Assembly: GCF_023101085.1 (NCBI RefSeq)
Contig: NZ_CP064703.1
Coordinates: 5,022,001 to 5,086,000, forward strand
Source: Bradyrhizobium sp. 170
GTDB taxonomy: Bacteria > Pseudomonadota > Alphaproteobacteria > Rhizobiales > Xanthobacteraceae
DNA length: 64,000 nt
Direction of reading: 5' to 3'
The notes beneath the pieces are model-generated. The model was not told where the DNA came from. It saw only the letters and a list, made by a program, of their open reading frames with translations, and ran no database searches. Numbering within the stretch: the first letter of the stretch is position 1; each line of letters starts with the position of its first letter. Of the stretch, positions 56,577-64,000 are shown piece after piece. Both the position numbers and the translations under genes were made by a program.

Positions 56577-58196
56577 CTACGCCTTCTTCTTCACGTCCTT
56601 GACGTTGGAAAAATTGATCCCCTCGGCCCGTTCGCGGGTATAGCCGAGATAGAACTCGTTCTTGGCCATGAATACCGGATCGCCGTCGACGTCATCGGCG
56701 ATGCCGGAGCCGTTGGCGGCGATGAAAGCGTCGAGTTTCTTGCGATCGTCGGACGAGACCCAGCGCGCGAGCTGGAACTCCGAGACCTCGAATTCCACCG
56801 GCAGCGAATATTCCGCGTCGAGCCGCGCCTTGAGCACGTCGAGCTGCAGCGGACCGACGACGCCGACCAGCGCCGGTGCGCCGTCGCGCGGCCGGAACAC
56901 CTGCACCACGCCCTCTTCCGACATCTGCTGCAGGGCTTCCTTCAGCTTCTTCGCCTTCATCGCGTCCGTCAGGCGCACGCGGCGGACGATTTCCGGCGCA
57001 AAGCTCGGAACTCCGACGAAGGTGATATCCTCGCCCTCGGTCAGCGTATCGCCGATCCGAAGCGTGCCGTGGTTGGGAATGCCGACGACGTCGCCGGCAA
57101 AGGCTTCGTCTGCCACAGAACGATCCTGGGCGAAGAAGAACTGCGGCGACGACAGCGACATGTTCTTGCCGGTGCGCACCAGTTTTGCCTTCATGCCGCG
57201 GCTGAGTTTGCCTGAACATAGGCGCGCGAAGGCGATACGATCGCGGTGGTTCGGATCCATGTTGGCCTGGATCTTGAACACGAACGCGCTCATGCGCGGC
57301 TCGGCCGCCTCGACCTTGCGCAGGTTCGAATCTTGCGCCCGGGGCGCAGGCGCAAACTTGCCAAGACCTTCCAGCAGGTCGCCGACGCCGAAATTGCGCA
57401 GCGCGCTGCCGAAATAGACCGGCGTGAGATGGCCTTCGCGAAATGCCTGCAGCTCGAACGGCTTGCAGGCTTCCGAGACCAGCGCGAGTTCATCCTTGAT
57501 CTCGGCGACGTCGAGATTGGCGTTGCGGCCGGTGAGATCGGCGATGTCGATCTGCTCGGTCGCGCCGGTCTTGGCGCCGCCGCCTTCGAGCAGGCGCACA
57601 CCGCCATTGACGACGTCGTAGGTGCCGAGGAAGTCGCGGCCGCGGCCGACCGGCCAGGTCATCGGCGTGGTGTCGAGCGCCAGCGTCTTTTCGATCTCGT
57701 CCAGGAGTTCGAACGTGTCGCGGCTCTCGCGATCCATCTTGTTGATGAAGGTGATGATCGGAATGTCGCGCAGCCGGCACACCTCGAACAGCTTTCGCGT
57801 CCGCGCCTCGATGCCCTTGGCGGCGTCGATCACCATCACGGCGGAATCGACCGCGGTCAGCGTGCGGTAGGTGTCTTCGGAAAAGTCCTCGTGGCCCGGC
57901 GTATCCAAGAGGTTGAAGACGAGGTCCTGGAACTCGAACGTCATCACCGAGGTCACGACCGAGATGCCGCGCTCGCGCTCGATCTTCATCCAGTCGGAAC
58001 GGGTATTGCGCCGCTCGCCCTTGGCCTTGACCTGTCCCGCCAGATTGATGGCGCCGCCGAACAGCAGGAGTTTTTCGGTCAGCGTGGTCTTGCCGGCGTC
58101 CGGGTGGGAGATGATCGCAAACGTGCGCCGCCGCGCCACTTCATCGGCAAGCGGCGAGCGGGACGGCGATTCGGCAGTGACGGCAATGTCGGACAT
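56577..58196 (-). CDS. prfC: Peptide chain release factor 3
   Basis: RF3 is the GTPase that removes RF1/RF2 from the ribosome after peptide release. The 539-aa protein has the G1 motif [10 protein letters not shown] (residues 30-39), [13 protein letters not shown], and NKMDRESRD with the NKxD G4 motif. The C-terminal domains ([26 protein letters not shown]) are typical. ATG 58196 is the conserved start; the in-frame ATG at 58235 adds a poor extension. It diverges from the gdx gene with its riboswitch. Confidence 0.96.
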
Positions 58197-58249
58197 GAGG
58201 CTCGAGCGTTTGGCAGGGAAAACCGGGCTAATCAAGCCTCATTTGGTGG

Positions 58250-58278
58250 TTGCGGAGGGCGTTGGCCAGACCCATATC
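58250..58278 (+). promoter_or_regulatory. Candidate promoter of the riboswitch-gdx unit
   Basis: TTGCGG (58250-58255) and CATATC (58273-58278) are 17 bp apart. Transcription would start about 58284-58286, exactly at the first riboswitch hairpin. The match to consensus is modest; position is the main support. Confidence 0.4.
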
Positions 58279-58284
58279 GGCAGC

Positions 58285-58349
58285 GGAAGGACGGCCTTCC
58301 ATTTCACAGCTCATCCGCGGGGACGACCCTGCCTGGTTCGGAGGGTCGT
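58285..58349 (+). promoter_or_regulatory. Guanidine-II (mini-ykkC) riboswitch
   Basis: Two hairpins with ACGR loops define the class. P1 is GGAAGG-ACGG-CCTTCC (58285-58300) and P2 is GCGGGG-ACGA-CCCTGC (58317-58332, one G-U pair), with a 16-nt linker. Each ACGR loop is the guanidine-binding element of the class. In addition ACGACCCT (58323-58330) can pair over 8 bp with AGGGTCGT (58342-58349), which includes the ribosome site GGAGG (58340-58344). So P2 and the site-sequestering helix exclude each other: guanidine should free the ribosome site and turn gdx on (mechanism inferred). The start codon follows at 58351. Confidence 0.88.
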
Positions 58350-58350
58350 G

Positions 58351-58665
58351 ATGGCCTGGATCGTATTGTTCGTCGCCGGCCTCATGGAAATAGGCTGGGC
58401 TATCGGCCTCAAGTATACTGAAGGTTTCACACGCCTCGTTCCATCCGTCCTGACGCTCGCCTGCATGGCGGGCAGCATCCTCCTGCTCGGCCTTGCCTTG
58501 AAAGCGCTGCCGATCGGAACCGCCTACGCGGTGTGGACCGGTATCGGCGCGGTCGGAACGGCCATCCTGGGCATCGCCCTGTTCGGCGAGCCTGCTACCG
58601 CCGCCCGCCTCGCCTGCATCGGCCTGATCGTGGCCGGCATTGCCGGGCTCAAGCTTGTCACCTGA
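58351..58665 (+). CDS. gdx: SMR-family guanidinium exporter Gdx (SugE)
   Basis: The 104-aa four-TM protein matches Gdx/SugE. The central Glu13, essential for substrate and proton exchange, is in [37 protein letters not shown] in helix 3 is the subtype mark that separates Gdx from the drug pump EmrE. It should exchange guanidinium for protons across the inner membrane as a dimer of opposite topology. ATG 58351 sits directly below the riboswitch. Its stop abuts, without a gap, the stop of the convergent pit gene. Confidence 0.93.
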
Positions 58666-59670
58666 TCAGCGCAACAGCAGTGCCGCCCAATAGGTCAACG
58701 CCGCCACGATCGCGGAAGCCGGAATGGTGATCACCCAGGCATAGACGATCGAACTCGCCACGTTCCAGCGCACCGCCGAAACCCGCCGCGCCGCGCCGAC
58801 GCCGATGATCGAGCCGGTAATGGTGTGGGTCGTGGATACGGGAACCCCGAGAAAGGTCGCCATGAACAGGGTCGCCGCCCCGCCGGTTTCAGCGCAAAAA
58901 CCCTGCATCGGCGTCAGCTTCGTAATCCGCAGCCCCATGGTGCGGACGATCCGCCAGCCTCCCATCAGGGTGCCGAGGCCCATGGCCGCCTGGCAGGAAA
59001 TCACGACCCAGAACGGGATGTTAAAGTCCGCGCCGAGGTGACCCTGCGAATAGAGCAGCACCGCGATGATGCCCATGGTCTTTTGCGCGTCATTGCCGCC
59101 ATGGCCGAGCGAATAGAGCGACGCCGAGACGAATTGCAGGATGCGGAAGGCGCGGTCGACCGCAAACGGCGTCGAGCGCACCGAGAGCCAGGACACGATC
59201 GCGACCAGCACCAGCGCCAGCAGGAACCCGACCAGCGGCGACAGCACGATCGCCAGCAGCGTTTTCGACAGGCCGGTCCAGACAGCCGCCGAAATCCCGG
59301 CCTTTGCCATGCCGGCGCCCACCAACCCGCCGATCAGCGCGTGCGAACTGGACGAGGGAATCCCGAGCGCCCACGTGATCAGGTTCCAGACGATGGCGCC
59401 CACAAGTGCCGCGAAAATCACGGTGGCATCGACAACGCTCGGTTCGATGATGCCGGTGCCGATCGTATTGGCGACGTGGAGCCCGAACACCAGGAAGGCG
59501 ATGAAATTGAAAAAGGCGGCCCAGATCACCGCATATTGCGGGCGCAACACGCGGGTCGACACGATCGTTGCGATCGAATTGGCGGCGTCGTGCAACCCGT
59601 TGAGGAAGTCGAACAGCAGCGCGACCGCGATCAGGAAGACCAGAATCGGAAGACCGAGCGAGGCGTCCAC
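58666..59670 (-). CDS. pit: Low-affinity inorganic phosphate transporter (Pit)
   Basis: The 334-aa protein of about ten TMs moves metal-phosphate complexes with protons. The PiT signatures are clear: NGLHDAANSIATIVSTRVL near residue 24, a PSSSSHALIGGLVG half near residue 105 and GVPVSTTHTITGSIIG in the second half, with GGNDAQKTMG between. The start is GTG 59670 with AGGG upstream. It follows the DUF47 gene by 15 bp, the orfA-pit arrangement of Sinorhizobium. The length is shorter than the E. coli Pit (about 500 aa) but normal for rhizobial forms. Confidence 0.95.
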   Translation of the reverse strand: MDASLGLPILVFLIAVALLFDFLNGLHDAANSIATIVSTRVLRPQYAVIWAAFFNFIAFLVFGLHVANTIGTGIIEPSVVDATVIFAALVGAIVWNLITWALGIPSSSSHALIGGLVGAGMAKAGISAAVWTGLSKTLLAIVLSPLVGFLLALVLVAIVSWLSVRSTPFAVDRAFRILQFVSASLYSLGHGGNDAQKTMGIIAVLLYSQGHLGADFNIPFWVVISCQAAMGLGTLMGGWRIVRTMGLRITKLTPMQGFCAETGGAATLFMATFLGVPVSTTHTITGSIIGVGAARRVSAVRWNVASSIVYAWVITIPASAIVAALTYWAALLLR

Positions 59671-60482: not shown

Positions 60483-61451
60483 TTACAGCGATCTCCGGAA
60501 ATAATGCGCGATTTCGCCGATCACGCCGCGGCGGAAGGTCAGCACGCAGGCGACGAAGATGACGCCCTGGATCACCGTCACCCACTGGCCGAACCCGGCC
60601 AGATATTGCTGCATGGCGATGATGACGAAGGCGCCGACCACCGGGCCGAACACCGTTCCGAGGCCGCCAACCAGCGTCATCAGCACGATTTCGCCCGACA
60701 TCGTCCAGTGCACGTCGGTGAGCGAGGCGTTCTGCGCCACGAACACCTTCAGCGAGCCGGCAAAGCCCGCGATGGTCCCGGAGAGGATGAAGGCGAGCAG
60801 CTTGTACTGGTCGGTCTTGTAGCCCAGCGAGATCGCGCGCTGCTCGTTCTCGCGGATCGACTTCAGCACCTCGCCGAACGGCGAGTTGATGGTGCGGTAG
60901 ATCAGCAGGAATCCGCCGAGGAAGCCGGCCAGCACGACGTAGTAAAGTACGGTCGGGTTAGCGAGATTGAAGACACCGAACAGATAGCCTTGCGGGATGC
61001 CCTGGATGCCGTCTTCGCCATGGGTAAAGGGCATCTGCAGATAGATGAAATACAGCAGTTGCGACAGCGCCAGCGTGATCATCGAGAAATAGATGCCCTG
61101 CCGACGGATCGAGATGAAGCCGGTGACGACCGAAAGAGCCGCGGCGGCGGCGACTCCGACCAGAATTCCGAGTTCAGGCGTAAAACCCCAAACCTTCAGC
61201 GCATGCGCCGTGCAGTAACCCGCGGTGCCCAGGAACATCGCGTGGCCGAACGACAGCAGGCCGCCATAGCCGATCAGGAGATTGAACGCGCAGGCGAGCA
61301 GCGCGAAGCACAGCGCCTGCATGACGAAGAACGGGTAGATGCCGGTCGCGGGCACCATGGCCAGCAGCACCGCCATCGCCGCGAACACGATCATTTCGTC
61401 GCGGATGGCCCGCGGGCTTGTCGGCAGTGTGTCGTCAGTCAATGCGCTCAT
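60483..61451 (-). CDS. Branched-chain-amino-acid-type ABC permease (LivM type)
   Basis: The 322-aa inner-membrane permease has about ten hydrophobic segments and the LivM-type order: FNLLIGYGGLLSFGHAMFLG (about residues 57-76), a conserved GIPQGYLFG region and VLMTLVGGLGTVFGPVVGAF near residue 235, the ATPase coupling region. It works with the LivH-type permease, from which it is separated by 1 bp. The operon order is binding protein, LivH, LivM on the minus strand, with a LivF-type ATPase upstream of the binding protein. Confidence 0.92.
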   Translation of the reverse strand: MSALTDDTLPTSPRAIRDEMIVFAAMAVLLAMVPATGIYPFFVMQALCFALLACAFNLLIGYGGLLSFGHAMFLGTAGYCTAHALKVWGFTPELGILVGVAAAAALSVVTGFISIRRQGIYFSMITLALSQLLYFIYLQMPFTHGEDGIQGIPQGYLFGVFNLANPTVLYYVVLAGFLGGFLLIYRTINSPFGEVLKSIRENEQRAISLGYKTDQYKLLAFILSGTIAGFAGSLKVFVAQNASLTDVHWTMSGEIVLMTLVGGLGTVFGPVVGAFVIIAMQQYLAGFGQWVTVIQGVIFVACVLTFRRGVIGEIAHYFRRSL

Positions 61452-61452
61452 G

Positions 61453-62316
61453 TCAGGCAGCCCGTCCGGTCAGTCCCGCAGGCTTCACCAGCAACACCAG
61501 CACCATCAGGACGAACACCACGGTGTTGGAAGCCTCGGGATAAAAATACTTGGTCAGTCCCTCGATCACGCCGAGGGCGAAGCCGGTGATGATCGATCCC
61601 ATGATCGAGCCCATGCCGCCGATCACCACCACCGCGAACACGACGATGATCAGATCGGCGCCCATCAGCGGCCGCACCTGGTTGATCGGGGCCGACAACA
61701 CGCCGGCCAGCGCGGCAAGACCGACGCCGAGCCCGTAGGTCAGCGTGATCATCCTGGGCACGTTGATGCCGAAGGCGCGCACCAGGGTCGGATTTTCGGT
61801 CGCGGCGCGCAGATTGGCGCCGAGCCGCGTTTTCTCGATCAGGAACCAGGTCGCGATGCAGACCACGAGCGAGAACACCACCACCCAGCCGCGATAGATC
61901 GGCAGGAACATGAAGCCGAGATTCATGCCGCCCTTCAGCTCATCCGGGATCGCGTAAGGCAACCCGGAAGAGCCGAAATAATTCTGGAACACGCCCTGCA
62001 CGATCAGCGCGATGCCGAAGGTCAGCAGCAATCCGTAGAGATGGTCGAGGCCGGAGAGCCATTGCAGCATGGTCCGCTCCAGGATCATGCCGAAGATACC
62101 GACGACGATGGGCGCGATGATCAGCGCCGGCCAATAGCCGATGCCGGCGATGTTCAACAGAAAGTACGCGCAGAACGCACCCATCATATAGAGCGCGCCA
62201 TGGGCGAAATTGATGATGTTGAGCATGCCGAAGATCACGGCGAGCCCGAGACTGAGCAGCGCGTAGAACGATCCGTTGATCAATCCCACCAAGAGCTGGG
62301 CGTAAAGAGCTTGCAT
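61453..62316 (-). CDS. Branched-chain-amino-acid-type ABC permease (LivH type)
   Basis: The 287-aa permease has about eight TM segments. It shows the LivH marks YAQLLVGLINGSFYALLSLG at the start, GMLNIINFAHGALYMMGAF and VFAVVVIGGMGSIMGSIITG near residue 225, the coupling region. I placed the start at ATG 62316, the family N-terminus; a TTG five codons earlier is also possible. It follows the binding-protein gene by 89 bp with a hairpin between (62372-62397) and precedes LivM by 1 bp. Confidence 0.92.
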   Translation of the reverse strand: MQALYAQLLVGLINGSFYALLSLGLAVIFGMLNIINFAHGALYMMGAFCAYFLLNIAGIGYWPALIIAPIVVGIFGMILERTMLQWLSGLDHLYGLLLTFGIALIVQGVFQNYFGSSGLPYAIPDELKGGMNLGFMFLPIYRGWVVVFSLVVCIATWFLIEKTRLGANLRAATENPTLVRAFGINVPRMITLTYGLGVGLAALAGVLSAPINQVRPLMGADLIIVVFAVVVIGGMGSIMGSIITGFALGVIEGLTKYFYPEASNTVVFVLMVLVLLVKPAGLTGRAA

Positions 62317-62371
62317 CGGTTTCGCACTCAATCTCGTTTATGACGCAAATCGCGTTGTGACGCGAGAGGGC

Positions 62372-62397
62372 GCCCGCCGGCACGGATGCCGGCGGGC
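62372..62397 (-). terminator. Hairpin between binding protein and permeases
   Basis: GCCCGCCGGCA and TGCCGGCGGGC form a perfect 11-bp stem with a CGGA loop. No T-run follows on the minus strand, so it probably stabilises or attenuates the message to give more binding protein than permease, as in many ABC operons. Confidence 0.6.
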
Positions 62398-62405
62398 TAT
62401 CGTTC

Positions 62406-63623
62406 TTACTTCTTTACCAGCGGACAGGCGCTTTCCGAAAGCGGTCGGAAGGCCTGGTCCGCCGGGGTTGTTCCGACCAGCTTGTAATAGTCCCACGGTC
62501 CCTTGGATTCGGAAGGCTTCTTGACTTCAAACAGATAGGCCGGATGAAGCTTGCGGCCGTCGGCGCGGATCGTGCCCTTGCCGAACAGCGGGTCGTCAGT
62601 CGGCGCTTCCTTCATTTTCGCAACCACCTTGACGCCGTCATGAGGATTGCCGCCCATCGCATCGATCGTCTTGAAATAGTGGATCAGGCCCGAATACACG
62701 CCAGCCTGCACCATCGACGGCATCGCCTTGTTCTTCATGCGCTCGGAGAAGCGTTTCGAAAACGCGCGAGTGCCGTCGTTCAAATCCCAGTAGAACGTTT
62801 CGGTGAAATTCAGGCCCTGAGCCACCTTGAGGCCGAGGGAGTGAACGTCGTTGATGAACAGCAGCAGTCCCGCGAGTTTCTGGCCGCCCGAGACGATGCC
62901 GAACTCCGCGGCCTGCTTGATGGTGTTGGTAGTGTCGCCGCCGGCATTGGCCATGCCGACGATCTTGGCCTTGGAGGCCTGCGCCTGCAGCAGGAACGAG
63001 GAGAAGTCCGACGAATTCAGGGGATGCCTGACGGTGCCGATAACCTTGCCGCCCGATTTAACCACGACTGCGGCGGTATCGCGTTCCAGCGCGTGGCCGA
63101 ACGCGTAGTCCGCGGTCAGGAAGTACCAGGTGTCGCCGCCGGCCTTCACCAGCGCCTGCCCGGTGCTGTTCGCCAGCATGTAGGTGTCGTAAACCCAGTG
63201 AATTGTGTTCGGCGAGCACTGGGCATTGGTGAGGTCCGACGTCGCCGCGCCGGTATTGATCATGATGGCGTTCTTTTCCTTCACCAGATTGTTCACCGCC
63301 AGCGCAACGCCGGAGTTCAGAACATCCACGAAGATATCGACCTTCTCGACGTCGATCCATTGACGCGCGACGGTGGTGCCGATGTCGGGTTTGTTCTGGT
63401 GGTCGGCGGAGATCAGGTCGATCTTCCACCCCTTGGCCGCAAGGCCGGAATCCTCGATCGCCATCTGCGCCGCCAACGTCGAGCCGGCGCCGCCGAGGTC
63501 GGAGTAAAGCCCGGAATTGTCGGTGAGAACGCCGATCTTGACGTTCTTGTCCTGTGCCAGGGCGCCGCCTGCGGCAAACGCCAGGGCGGTGCCGAGGAAA
63601 AGAGCTGAAATGCGATGTTTCAT
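62406..63623 (-). CDS. Branched-chain-amino-acid-type ABC substrate-binding protein
   Basis: The 405-aa periplasmic protein has a signal peptide (about residues 1-23, ending GALA) and a type I fold with KNVKIGVLTDNSGLYSDLGG at the start. GGAGAC precedes ATG 63623. It lies in an operon of the order ATPase, binding protein, LivH, LivM. It is highly similar to the orphan protein at 40954-42192, with which it shares several stretches of more than ten identical residues. The true ligand may be amides, urea-like or aromatic acids rather than leucine; the sequence alone does not decide. Confidence 0.93.
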   Translation of the reverse strand: MKHRISALFLGTALAFAAGGALAQDKNVKIGVLTDNSGLYSDLGGAGSTLAAQMAIEDSGLAAKGWKIDLISADHQNKPDIGTTVARQWIDVEKVDIFVDVLNSGVALAVNNLVKEKNAIMINTGAATSDLTNAQCSPNTIHWVYDTYMLANSTGQALVKAGGDTWYFLTADYAFGHALERDTAAVVVKSGGKVIGTVRHPLNSSDFSSFLLQAQASKAKIVGMANAGGDTTNTIKQAAEFGIVSGGQKLAGLLLFINDVHSLGLKVAQGLNFTETFYWDLNDGTRAFSKRFSERMKNKAMPSMVQAGVYSGLIHYFKTIDAMGGNPHDGVKVVAKMKEAPTDDPLFGKGTIRADGRKLHPAYLFEVKKPSESKGPWDYYKLVGTTPADQAFRPLSESACPLVKK

Positions 63624-63661
63624 ATTGTCTCCATTAATCCTGAGTGCAGTCGCAGTAACAA

Positions 63662-64000
63662 TCAGACGCCGAGATAGGTGTGGAGCTTGTCCATGTTGGC
63701 CGACAGCTCCGAATTCGCAAACCCGTCGATGACCTTGCCGTGCTCGACGATGTAGTAGCGGTCGGCCACCGTGGAGGCGAAGCGAAAATTCTGCTCGACC
63801 AGCAGGATGGTGAAGCCTTCCGATTTCAGCCGCGCGATGGTGTGGCCGATCTGCTGGATGATGACAGGCGCGAGACCCTCGGTCGGCTCGTCCAGCATCA
63901 GGAAGCGCGCGCCGGTGCGCAGGATTCTGGCGATCGCGAGCATCTGCTGCTCGCCGCCGGAAAGCTTGGTGCCCTGGCTGTTGAGGCGCTCCTTCAGGTT
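63662..64000 (-). CDS. LivF-type ABC ATPase, partial (N-terminus beyond window)
   Basis: Only the C-terminal part (about 112 residues) is inside the window. It begins in NLKERLNSQGTKLSGGEQQM, with the ABC signature LSGGEQQ. Walker B is FLMLDEPTEGLAP and the H-loop region is ILLVEQNFRFA. It ends LHTYLGV, typical of LivF. The gene starts at the right of the window and precedes the binding-protein gene by about 38 bp. It supplies ATP hydrolysis for the adjacent permeases. Confidence 0.92.
   Translation of the reverse strand, partial: NLKERLNSQGTKLSGGEQQMLAIARILRTGARFLMLDEPTEGLAPVIIQQIGHTIARLKSEGFTILLVEQNFRFASTVADRYYIVEHGKVIDGFANSELSANMDKLHTYLGV

Follow-up and report, generated by a model that had tools for sequence, protein, structure and literature searches.

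The gdx locus and its leader

Within the window (the whole stretch of DNA analysed, 64 kb long, from a genome that forms a single contig of 9.2 Mb), a short leader lies between two divergent genes, prfC (minus strand, taken as 56577-58196) and gdx (plus strand, 58351-58665, ATG at 58351). The latter, also named sugE, encodes a 104-amino-acid protein of the SMR family that is predicted from profile matches to export guanidinium: it scores 144 bits against the SugE model NF008512 (cut-off 126) and 98.1 bits against PF00893, and is nearer to the SMR structures 6wk5 (E = 6.7e-31) and 8vxu (E = 2.4e-30) than to EmrE (best E = 2e-12). With a SugE score above the cut-off and structures of the Gdx type closer than EmrE (the PDB entries matched are titled just 'SMR family', and 6wk5 is presumably Gdx-Clo), the predicted protein has the features of the Gdx/SugE subtype. 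Among the best 80 of 575 confirmed gdx loci, the nearest named ones are those of Bradyrhizobium sp. CSA112 (96%) and B. archetypum (95%). The gdx frame stays open far upstream through the riboswitch, as an open reading frame of 264 amino acids from a GTG at 57871 (57871-58665, plus strand), so automatic annotation could set the start too early. Downstream of gdx, on the minus strand, 60483-63943 holds a gene cluster that resembles a branched-chain-amino-acid-type ABC transporter, as judged from translations only.

The leader itself carries a Guanidine-II (mini-ykkC) aptamer. In a cmscan search, Rfam model RF01068 matched 58283-58331 (plus strand) over its full length (model positions 1-48) with 43.3 bits against a gathering cut-off of 32, the sole gathering-level Rfam match in the window, with E-values of 2.7e-5 (whole 64 kb), 3.8e-7 (the 901 bases 57900-58800) and 9.2e-7 (search of its own genome); the match ends 19 nt 5' of gdx. 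Two hairpins make up the aptamer, P1 (58285-58300, plus strand; strands GGAAGG and CCUUCC around the loop ACGG at 58291-58294) and P2 (58317-58332, plus strand; strands GCGGGG and CCCUGC around the loop ACGA at 58323-58326, also found in the folds), separated by a 16-nt linker (58301-58316, plus strand) that falls inside the class range of 7-40 nt given in an excerpt of PMC7544219. An earlier interpretation of this DNA, made from the letters alone (hereafter the sequence-only reading), had placed both hairpins exactly here, 16 nt apart, and had proposed a mini-ykkC RNA in front of a Gdx-type gene, with the Rfam model as a check; class, position and target type are all borne out by the RF01068 match above cut-off, the NF008512 match and the structure matches. 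Judged by its sequence, with the aptamer ahead of a guanidine-exporter-type gene, the leader is an authentic member of the Guanidine-II riboswitch class in its usual place.

In the genus, RF01068 matched 178 of the 265 genomes at E 0.001 in front of any downstream gene (168 over the cut-off); it matched 111 of 397 genomes of the order and 84 of 398 of the phylum, these three genome sets overlapping. Among the best 80 of the 575 confirmed gdx loci (named genomes), 36 (11 + 10 + 5 + 10) had a gathering-level match, which ended 30 nt or less from the gene in 34 and at 87 nt in the remaining two (L057 and L058). Three Guanidine-II matches occur in one genome of the order: two lie about 800 bases from each other (G461:C1, 609817-609863 and 610661-610710, the second just under the cut-off at 31.8 bits), and the third is elsewhere, at 4534577-4534629.

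Complementarity to the ribosome site

The ribosome-binding site, GGAGGG (58340-58345, plus strand), is followed by UCGU, which is complementary to the ACGR loops, and the resulting stretch GGAGGGUCGU (58340-58349) is open to three captures, by the loop and 3' strand of P2, by the loop and 3' strand of P1, and by the linker. The P2 segment 58323-58330 (ACGACCCT) is the exact reverse complement, over 8 bp, of 58342-58349 (AGGGTCGT), and in the folds CC at 58332-58333 can add two further pairs with GG at 58340-58341 past one bulged G. This complement had been read correctly, base for base, in the sequence-only reading, which built on it a mutual exclusion between P2 and an accessible site; the alternative hairpin is real, but it is one of three captures. 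The other two were absent from that reading: P1 pairs from 58291-58300 with the whole of 58340-58349 (10 bp, 2 of them G-U), and linker bases 58309-58312 and 58314-58316 can form seven pairs with 58340-58346, as in the minimum-free-energy fold to 58383. Both sensing loops appear able to cover the ribosome site.

Duplex energies with the last 21 nt up to the ATG were compared with those of 500 shuffles of these 21 nt. The P2 loop and 3' strand reached -15.7 (shuffled mean -8.9; about 2% of shuffles equally good), the P1 segment -16.7 (shuffled mean -8.5; share 0.00 after rounding) and the linker -12.0 (shuffled mean -8.7; share 0.09). The bases that follow the site also set this leader apart in its own genome: among 67 GGAGGGNNNNNATG sites, counted irrespective of whether they mark gene starts, UCGU or UUGU follows at gdx only (0 of the 66 others).

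Conservation across Bradyrhizobium

Leaders for comparison were located with our own two-hairpin finder rather than with Rfam; the finder identified one in 265 of 304 sequences, and the other 39 comprise 33 of the gdx loci from named genomes and six lost RF01068 matches (L138, L162, L231, L283, L296 and L303). The gdx start was defined as M-x-W with 50 open codons, giving 173 leaders (172 without L001, the window's duplicate); a TTG inside GTTGTCATGG was considered as a start codon and dropped, and start parsing uses overlapping matches. The 140 regions drawn from genome-search matches were taken mostly by match score, not at random. Pair counts use 73 of the 75 distinct Bradyrhizobium leaders, L168 and L194 lacking the core sought, and members of one genus are not independent of one another.

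Both segments and their target are retained. The P2 loop and 3' strand read ACGACCCU in 66 of the 73 leaders, in 63 of 73 P1 has ACGRCC, then two pyrimidines, then CC, and the ribosome site reads GGAGGGUCGU in 38 and GGAGGGUUGU in 14. U(C/U)GU lies 0-1 nt past GGG in 64 of the 75 distinct leaders, and in the 59 that are in register position -3 is G throughout, with C (44) or U (15) at -4, both able to pair with the loop G; positions -12 to -18, by comparison, have pairwise identities of 0.41-0.72, and third codon positions one of 0.62.

Tests for selection on pairing

Swap tests set each native site against the sites of other leaders. With its own P1, the native site scored better than swapped sites in three runs over 64 sequence clusters (p = 0.0012, 0.0004 and 0.0007; reversed-site control p = 0.12); in the latter two runs, two Bradyrhizobium leaders (L071 and L139) stood among the 'other genera'. 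The 56-cluster test, which excludes both and all of Bradyrhizobium, gave p = 0.0045 (control p = 0.64). At a looser cluster cut-off of 0.7 over all genera, the P1 value rose to p = 0.09 (28 clusters). For P2, the corresponding values were p = 0.02-0.03 over all clusters, p = 0.005 at the 0.7 cut-off and p = 0.24 outside Bradyrhizobium (56 clusters), such that in other genera P1 alone beats swapped sites. Hairpin 5' strands gave nothing (p = 0.54 and 0.79). The linker, tried as a general blocker, was rejected: its pairing was no better than with swapped sites (p = 0.71 over 64 clusters, p = 0.86 over 56 other-genus clusters) and is evident in single cases such as L274. Because P1 and P2 shift at the 0.7 cut-off and one reversed-site control of the linker reached p = 0.04, single p values near 0.03 are not reliable.

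The fourth P2 loop base and its partner across the helix were examined for Watson-Crick covariation, which is absent: the pair was readable in 33 of 88 clusters, with 18 standard pairs and 15 others, 8 of which are A opposite C. In this count and in the natural-context swap described below, 'non-Brady' refers to sequences outside the 75 distinct leaders, among which some Bradyrhizobium leaders remain. Read by eye, the P1 3' strands of three leaders outside Bradyrhizobium (L134, L152 and L040) match their ribosome sites over 8-10 bases; the same three are clear single cases for P1 in the swap-test energies.

What holds and what frees the site in folding models

Three closed forms of this leader lie within about 5 kcal/mol of one another, the lowest of them depending on the 3' end. 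For the six 3' ends modelled, the free ensemble is more stable than the open form (P1 + P2) by 5.6 to 9.3 kcal/mol, a large gap for a weak ligand to bridge. As the RNA is lengthened stepwise, P2 is present up to an end at 58345 (mean pair probability of 0.97); afterwards the leading form flips with the 3' end, the P2 alternative leading at 58349, 58360, 58370, 58410 and 58440 (0.74-0.99) and P2 at 58352, 58383 and 58500 (0.68-0.78).

Unconstrained, the site of this leader is masked (unpaired 0.02). The sequence-only reading had guanidine stabilise P2 and thereby free the site; in the folding model this is insufficient, since with P2 fixed the site moves to P1 (0.51) and the linker (0.42) and stays closed (unpaired 0.03; 9 nt past the ATG). 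With P1 and P2 both fixed, the linker holds it (0.86), leaving 0.07 unpaired with 9 nt past the ATG and 0.02 with 30 nt; at this greater length the linker is the main partner even in the free fold (0.83).

When 74 Bradyrhizobium leaders are folded freely to 9 nt beyond the ATG, the site is held chiefly by P2 in 65, by P1 in 8 and by the linker in a single one; at 30 nt beyond it, the corresponding counts are 60, 7 and 5, with one site open and one paired to coding sequence. When P2 is fixed, P1 captures the site (0.59 over the 74 leaders). The mean unpaired fraction over 75 leaders rises from 0.05 (free) to 0.06 (P1 fixed), 0.13 (P2 fixed) and 0.30 (both), so that fixing both hairpins opens the site beyond the sum of the single effects; this superadditivity suggests a P1-P2 kissing complex, which would hold both loops, as the unmasking state in the model. 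Even with both fixed, few sites open by more than half, 8 of 74 with 9 nt past the ATG and 2 of 74 with 30 nt; the site is then bound chiefly by the linker in 38 and 57 leaders, respectively. Outside Bradyrhizobium (56 clusters), the site opens hardly at all when the hairpins are fixed, from 0.31 to 0.34.

When the site context was replaced by 66 other natural ones, the mean closing energy was 4.3 instead of 7.8 kcal/mol with 9 nt past the ATG, and 5.4-5.5 instead of 7.7 kcal/mol with 0 or 30 nt; contexts that closed the leader equally tightly numbered 4 of 66 (9 nt), and 8 of 66 and 7 of 66 (0 and 30 nt).

A proposed translational switch and its alternatives

We propose, with a probability of about 0.6, that the gdx leader is a Guanidine-II translational ON switch, opened when a kissing complex removes both loop-based blockers. 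In the absence of guanidine, P2 would sequester GGAGGGUCGU through its ligand-binding loop and 3' strand, and the corresponding segment of P1 or the linker could step in as a fallback. When two guanidinium ions bind, P1 and P2 would be locked together through their ACGR loops as a kissing complex, so that both loops are withdrawn as blockers at the same time; the freed site would then admit ribosomes, and the exporter would be made. The order of the blockers is as the folding models would have it. What is observed is the aptamer match, the gene, the complementarities and their retention across Bradyrhizobium; ligand binding and kissing belong to the proposal. Weighing against it are the linker's hold on the site in doubly fixed folds, the energy of the open form, a leading closed form that changes with the 3' end, the lack of covariation at the fourth P2 loop base, the P2 swap test outside Bradyrhizobium and the P1 test at the 0.7 cut-off, the non-independence of leaders from one genus, the other natural contexts that close the leader equally tightly, and the near-absent effect of fixing the hairpins in other genera. 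The sequence-only reading had counted one guanidine per ACGR loop, a count that leaves out the loop-loop interaction between P1 and P2 described in excerpts of PMC5486947 and PMC9561414. Because the linker still holds the site in models with both hairpins fixed, we infer, rather than observe, that its pairing is lost in the bound state.

A stronger version of this proposal, which we regard as possible but doubtful, is that in Bradyrhizobium both ligand-binding loops are also both ribosome-site blockers, so that gdx opens only when both are locked by guanidine. It draws on GGAGGGU(C/U)GU as the shared complement of both ACGR-CC segments, from which it would follow that the site opens only if both loops are locked simultaneously. 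If true, the kissing complex would read out as an AND gate, giving a functional reason for two near-identical hairpins and connecting the number of blockers with cooperativity in ligand binding. It is worth testing, and the very short leaders of Bradyrhizobium, with their many natural variants, lend themselves to reading and testing the blocker.

Unmasking of the ribosome site has already been published as a proposal for Guanidine-II RNAs, and the class is described as working by an unblocking mechanism in an excerpt of PMC10907184 (further excerpts on class features: PMC7544219, PMC9481103, PMC7266159, PMC2864571 and PMC12186494). In the excerpts consulted, the blocker has been put in different positions (linker, P0 flank or P2 overlap), and mutational evidence on it is noted for P. 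aeruginosa only (PMC9561414). The E. coli sugE and P. aeruginosa systems resemble this leader in their two ACGR hairpins, short linker, SMR exporter gene and nearby ribosome site; they differ in that the blocker is placed in the linker in E. coli (PMC9300104 and PMC9094411) and in a P0 flank helix, proposed with ON and OFF mutants, in P. aeruginosa (PMC9561414), whereas here the loop and 3'-strand segments of both hairpins complement the site. In Gloeobacter violaceus, a stem loop was proposed that overlaps both P2 and the ribosome site and could form to the exclusion of the folded riboswitch, much as here, but the excerpt of PMC5486947 mentions no capture by P1, which this leader adds. The excerpts of the Guanidine-II literature consulted contained no mention of capture by the P1 loop and 3' strand, and we make no claim that it is unpublished.

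An account along E. coli lines, which we consider unlikely, has the linker as the blocker and P1-P2 kissing as what loosens its hold, the loop complements being by-products of a CC-rich aptamer meeting a GG-rich site. The linker's role as main partner in the longer fold of this leader, and in the doubly fixed folds of about half or more of the 74 leaders, would suit it, as would the E. coli proposal itself; against it stand the linker swap tests and the variability of linker sequences across Bradyrhizobium leaders in which UCGU is kept, a conservation that this account leaves unexplained.

That P2 simply competes with a single alternative hairpin (58323-58349), with ligand on P2 alone deciding the outcome, is improbable in our judgement. 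The exact 8-bp complement, the predominance of P2 as site partner in free folds (65 of 74 leaders) and the stem loop proposed for Gloeobacter all speak for it, but fixing P2 keeps the site closed through P1 and the linker (open 0.13 on average and 0.03 here), and a lone hairpin functions poorly according to an excerpt of PMC9481103.

The likely start of the transcript bears on a further alternative. A [CT]ATA[TA] box lies 4-18 nt 5' of P1 in 58 of the 75 Bradyrhizobium leaders (shuffles: mean 0.9, most 4) and starts 12-14 nt before P1 in 55 of them; here it forms part of a putative promoter, TTGCGG - 17 nt - CATATC (58250-58278, plus strand), proposed from the conserved -10-like box and the TTG only. 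The conserved position of the box would place the transcript start at about the first base of P1, so that transcripts probably begin at P1 itself, with no 5' flank. A scan of 58150-58760 for promoters of the E. coli-type consensus found none. The same interval yielded no terminator-like site, and transcription termination was therefore rejected as the mechanism. A P0 helix of the P. aeruginosa kind would join bases upstream of P1 to the 3' flank; in that species, changing C7, C8, C32 and C34 breaks switching ON (excerpt of PMC9561414). For this leader such a helix is very improbable, as no 5' flank is expected if the predicted start holds. Hardly any weight attaches to the idea that the match arose by chance or is a decayed one without a part in regulation, which would fit the ordinary fold energy of 58283-58375 (z = -0.25; an equal or better energy in 84 of 200 shuffles) but not the Rfam E-value over the 901 bases, the gene context or the retention in the genus.

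A second Guanidine-II element in the same genome

The genome carries a second Guanidine-II element (L002:1440-1640; 3830546-3830594), over the cut-off at 35.3 bits, which precedes UAAP1 (TIGR03425, 305.9 bits; cut-off 205.95) and stands behind ABC-transporter genes. It is of the same class as the gdx leader, with a different linker, ribosome site and downstream gene. As the same class of switch stands before gdx and before UAAP1, which is named after urea amidolyase, one signal may serve both, and guanidine export and probable breakdown may thus answer a single signal in this genome. The P1 hairpin of this second element shares bases with the 3' end of the ATPase gene; the stop codon of that gene sits in the linker that joins P1 to P2.
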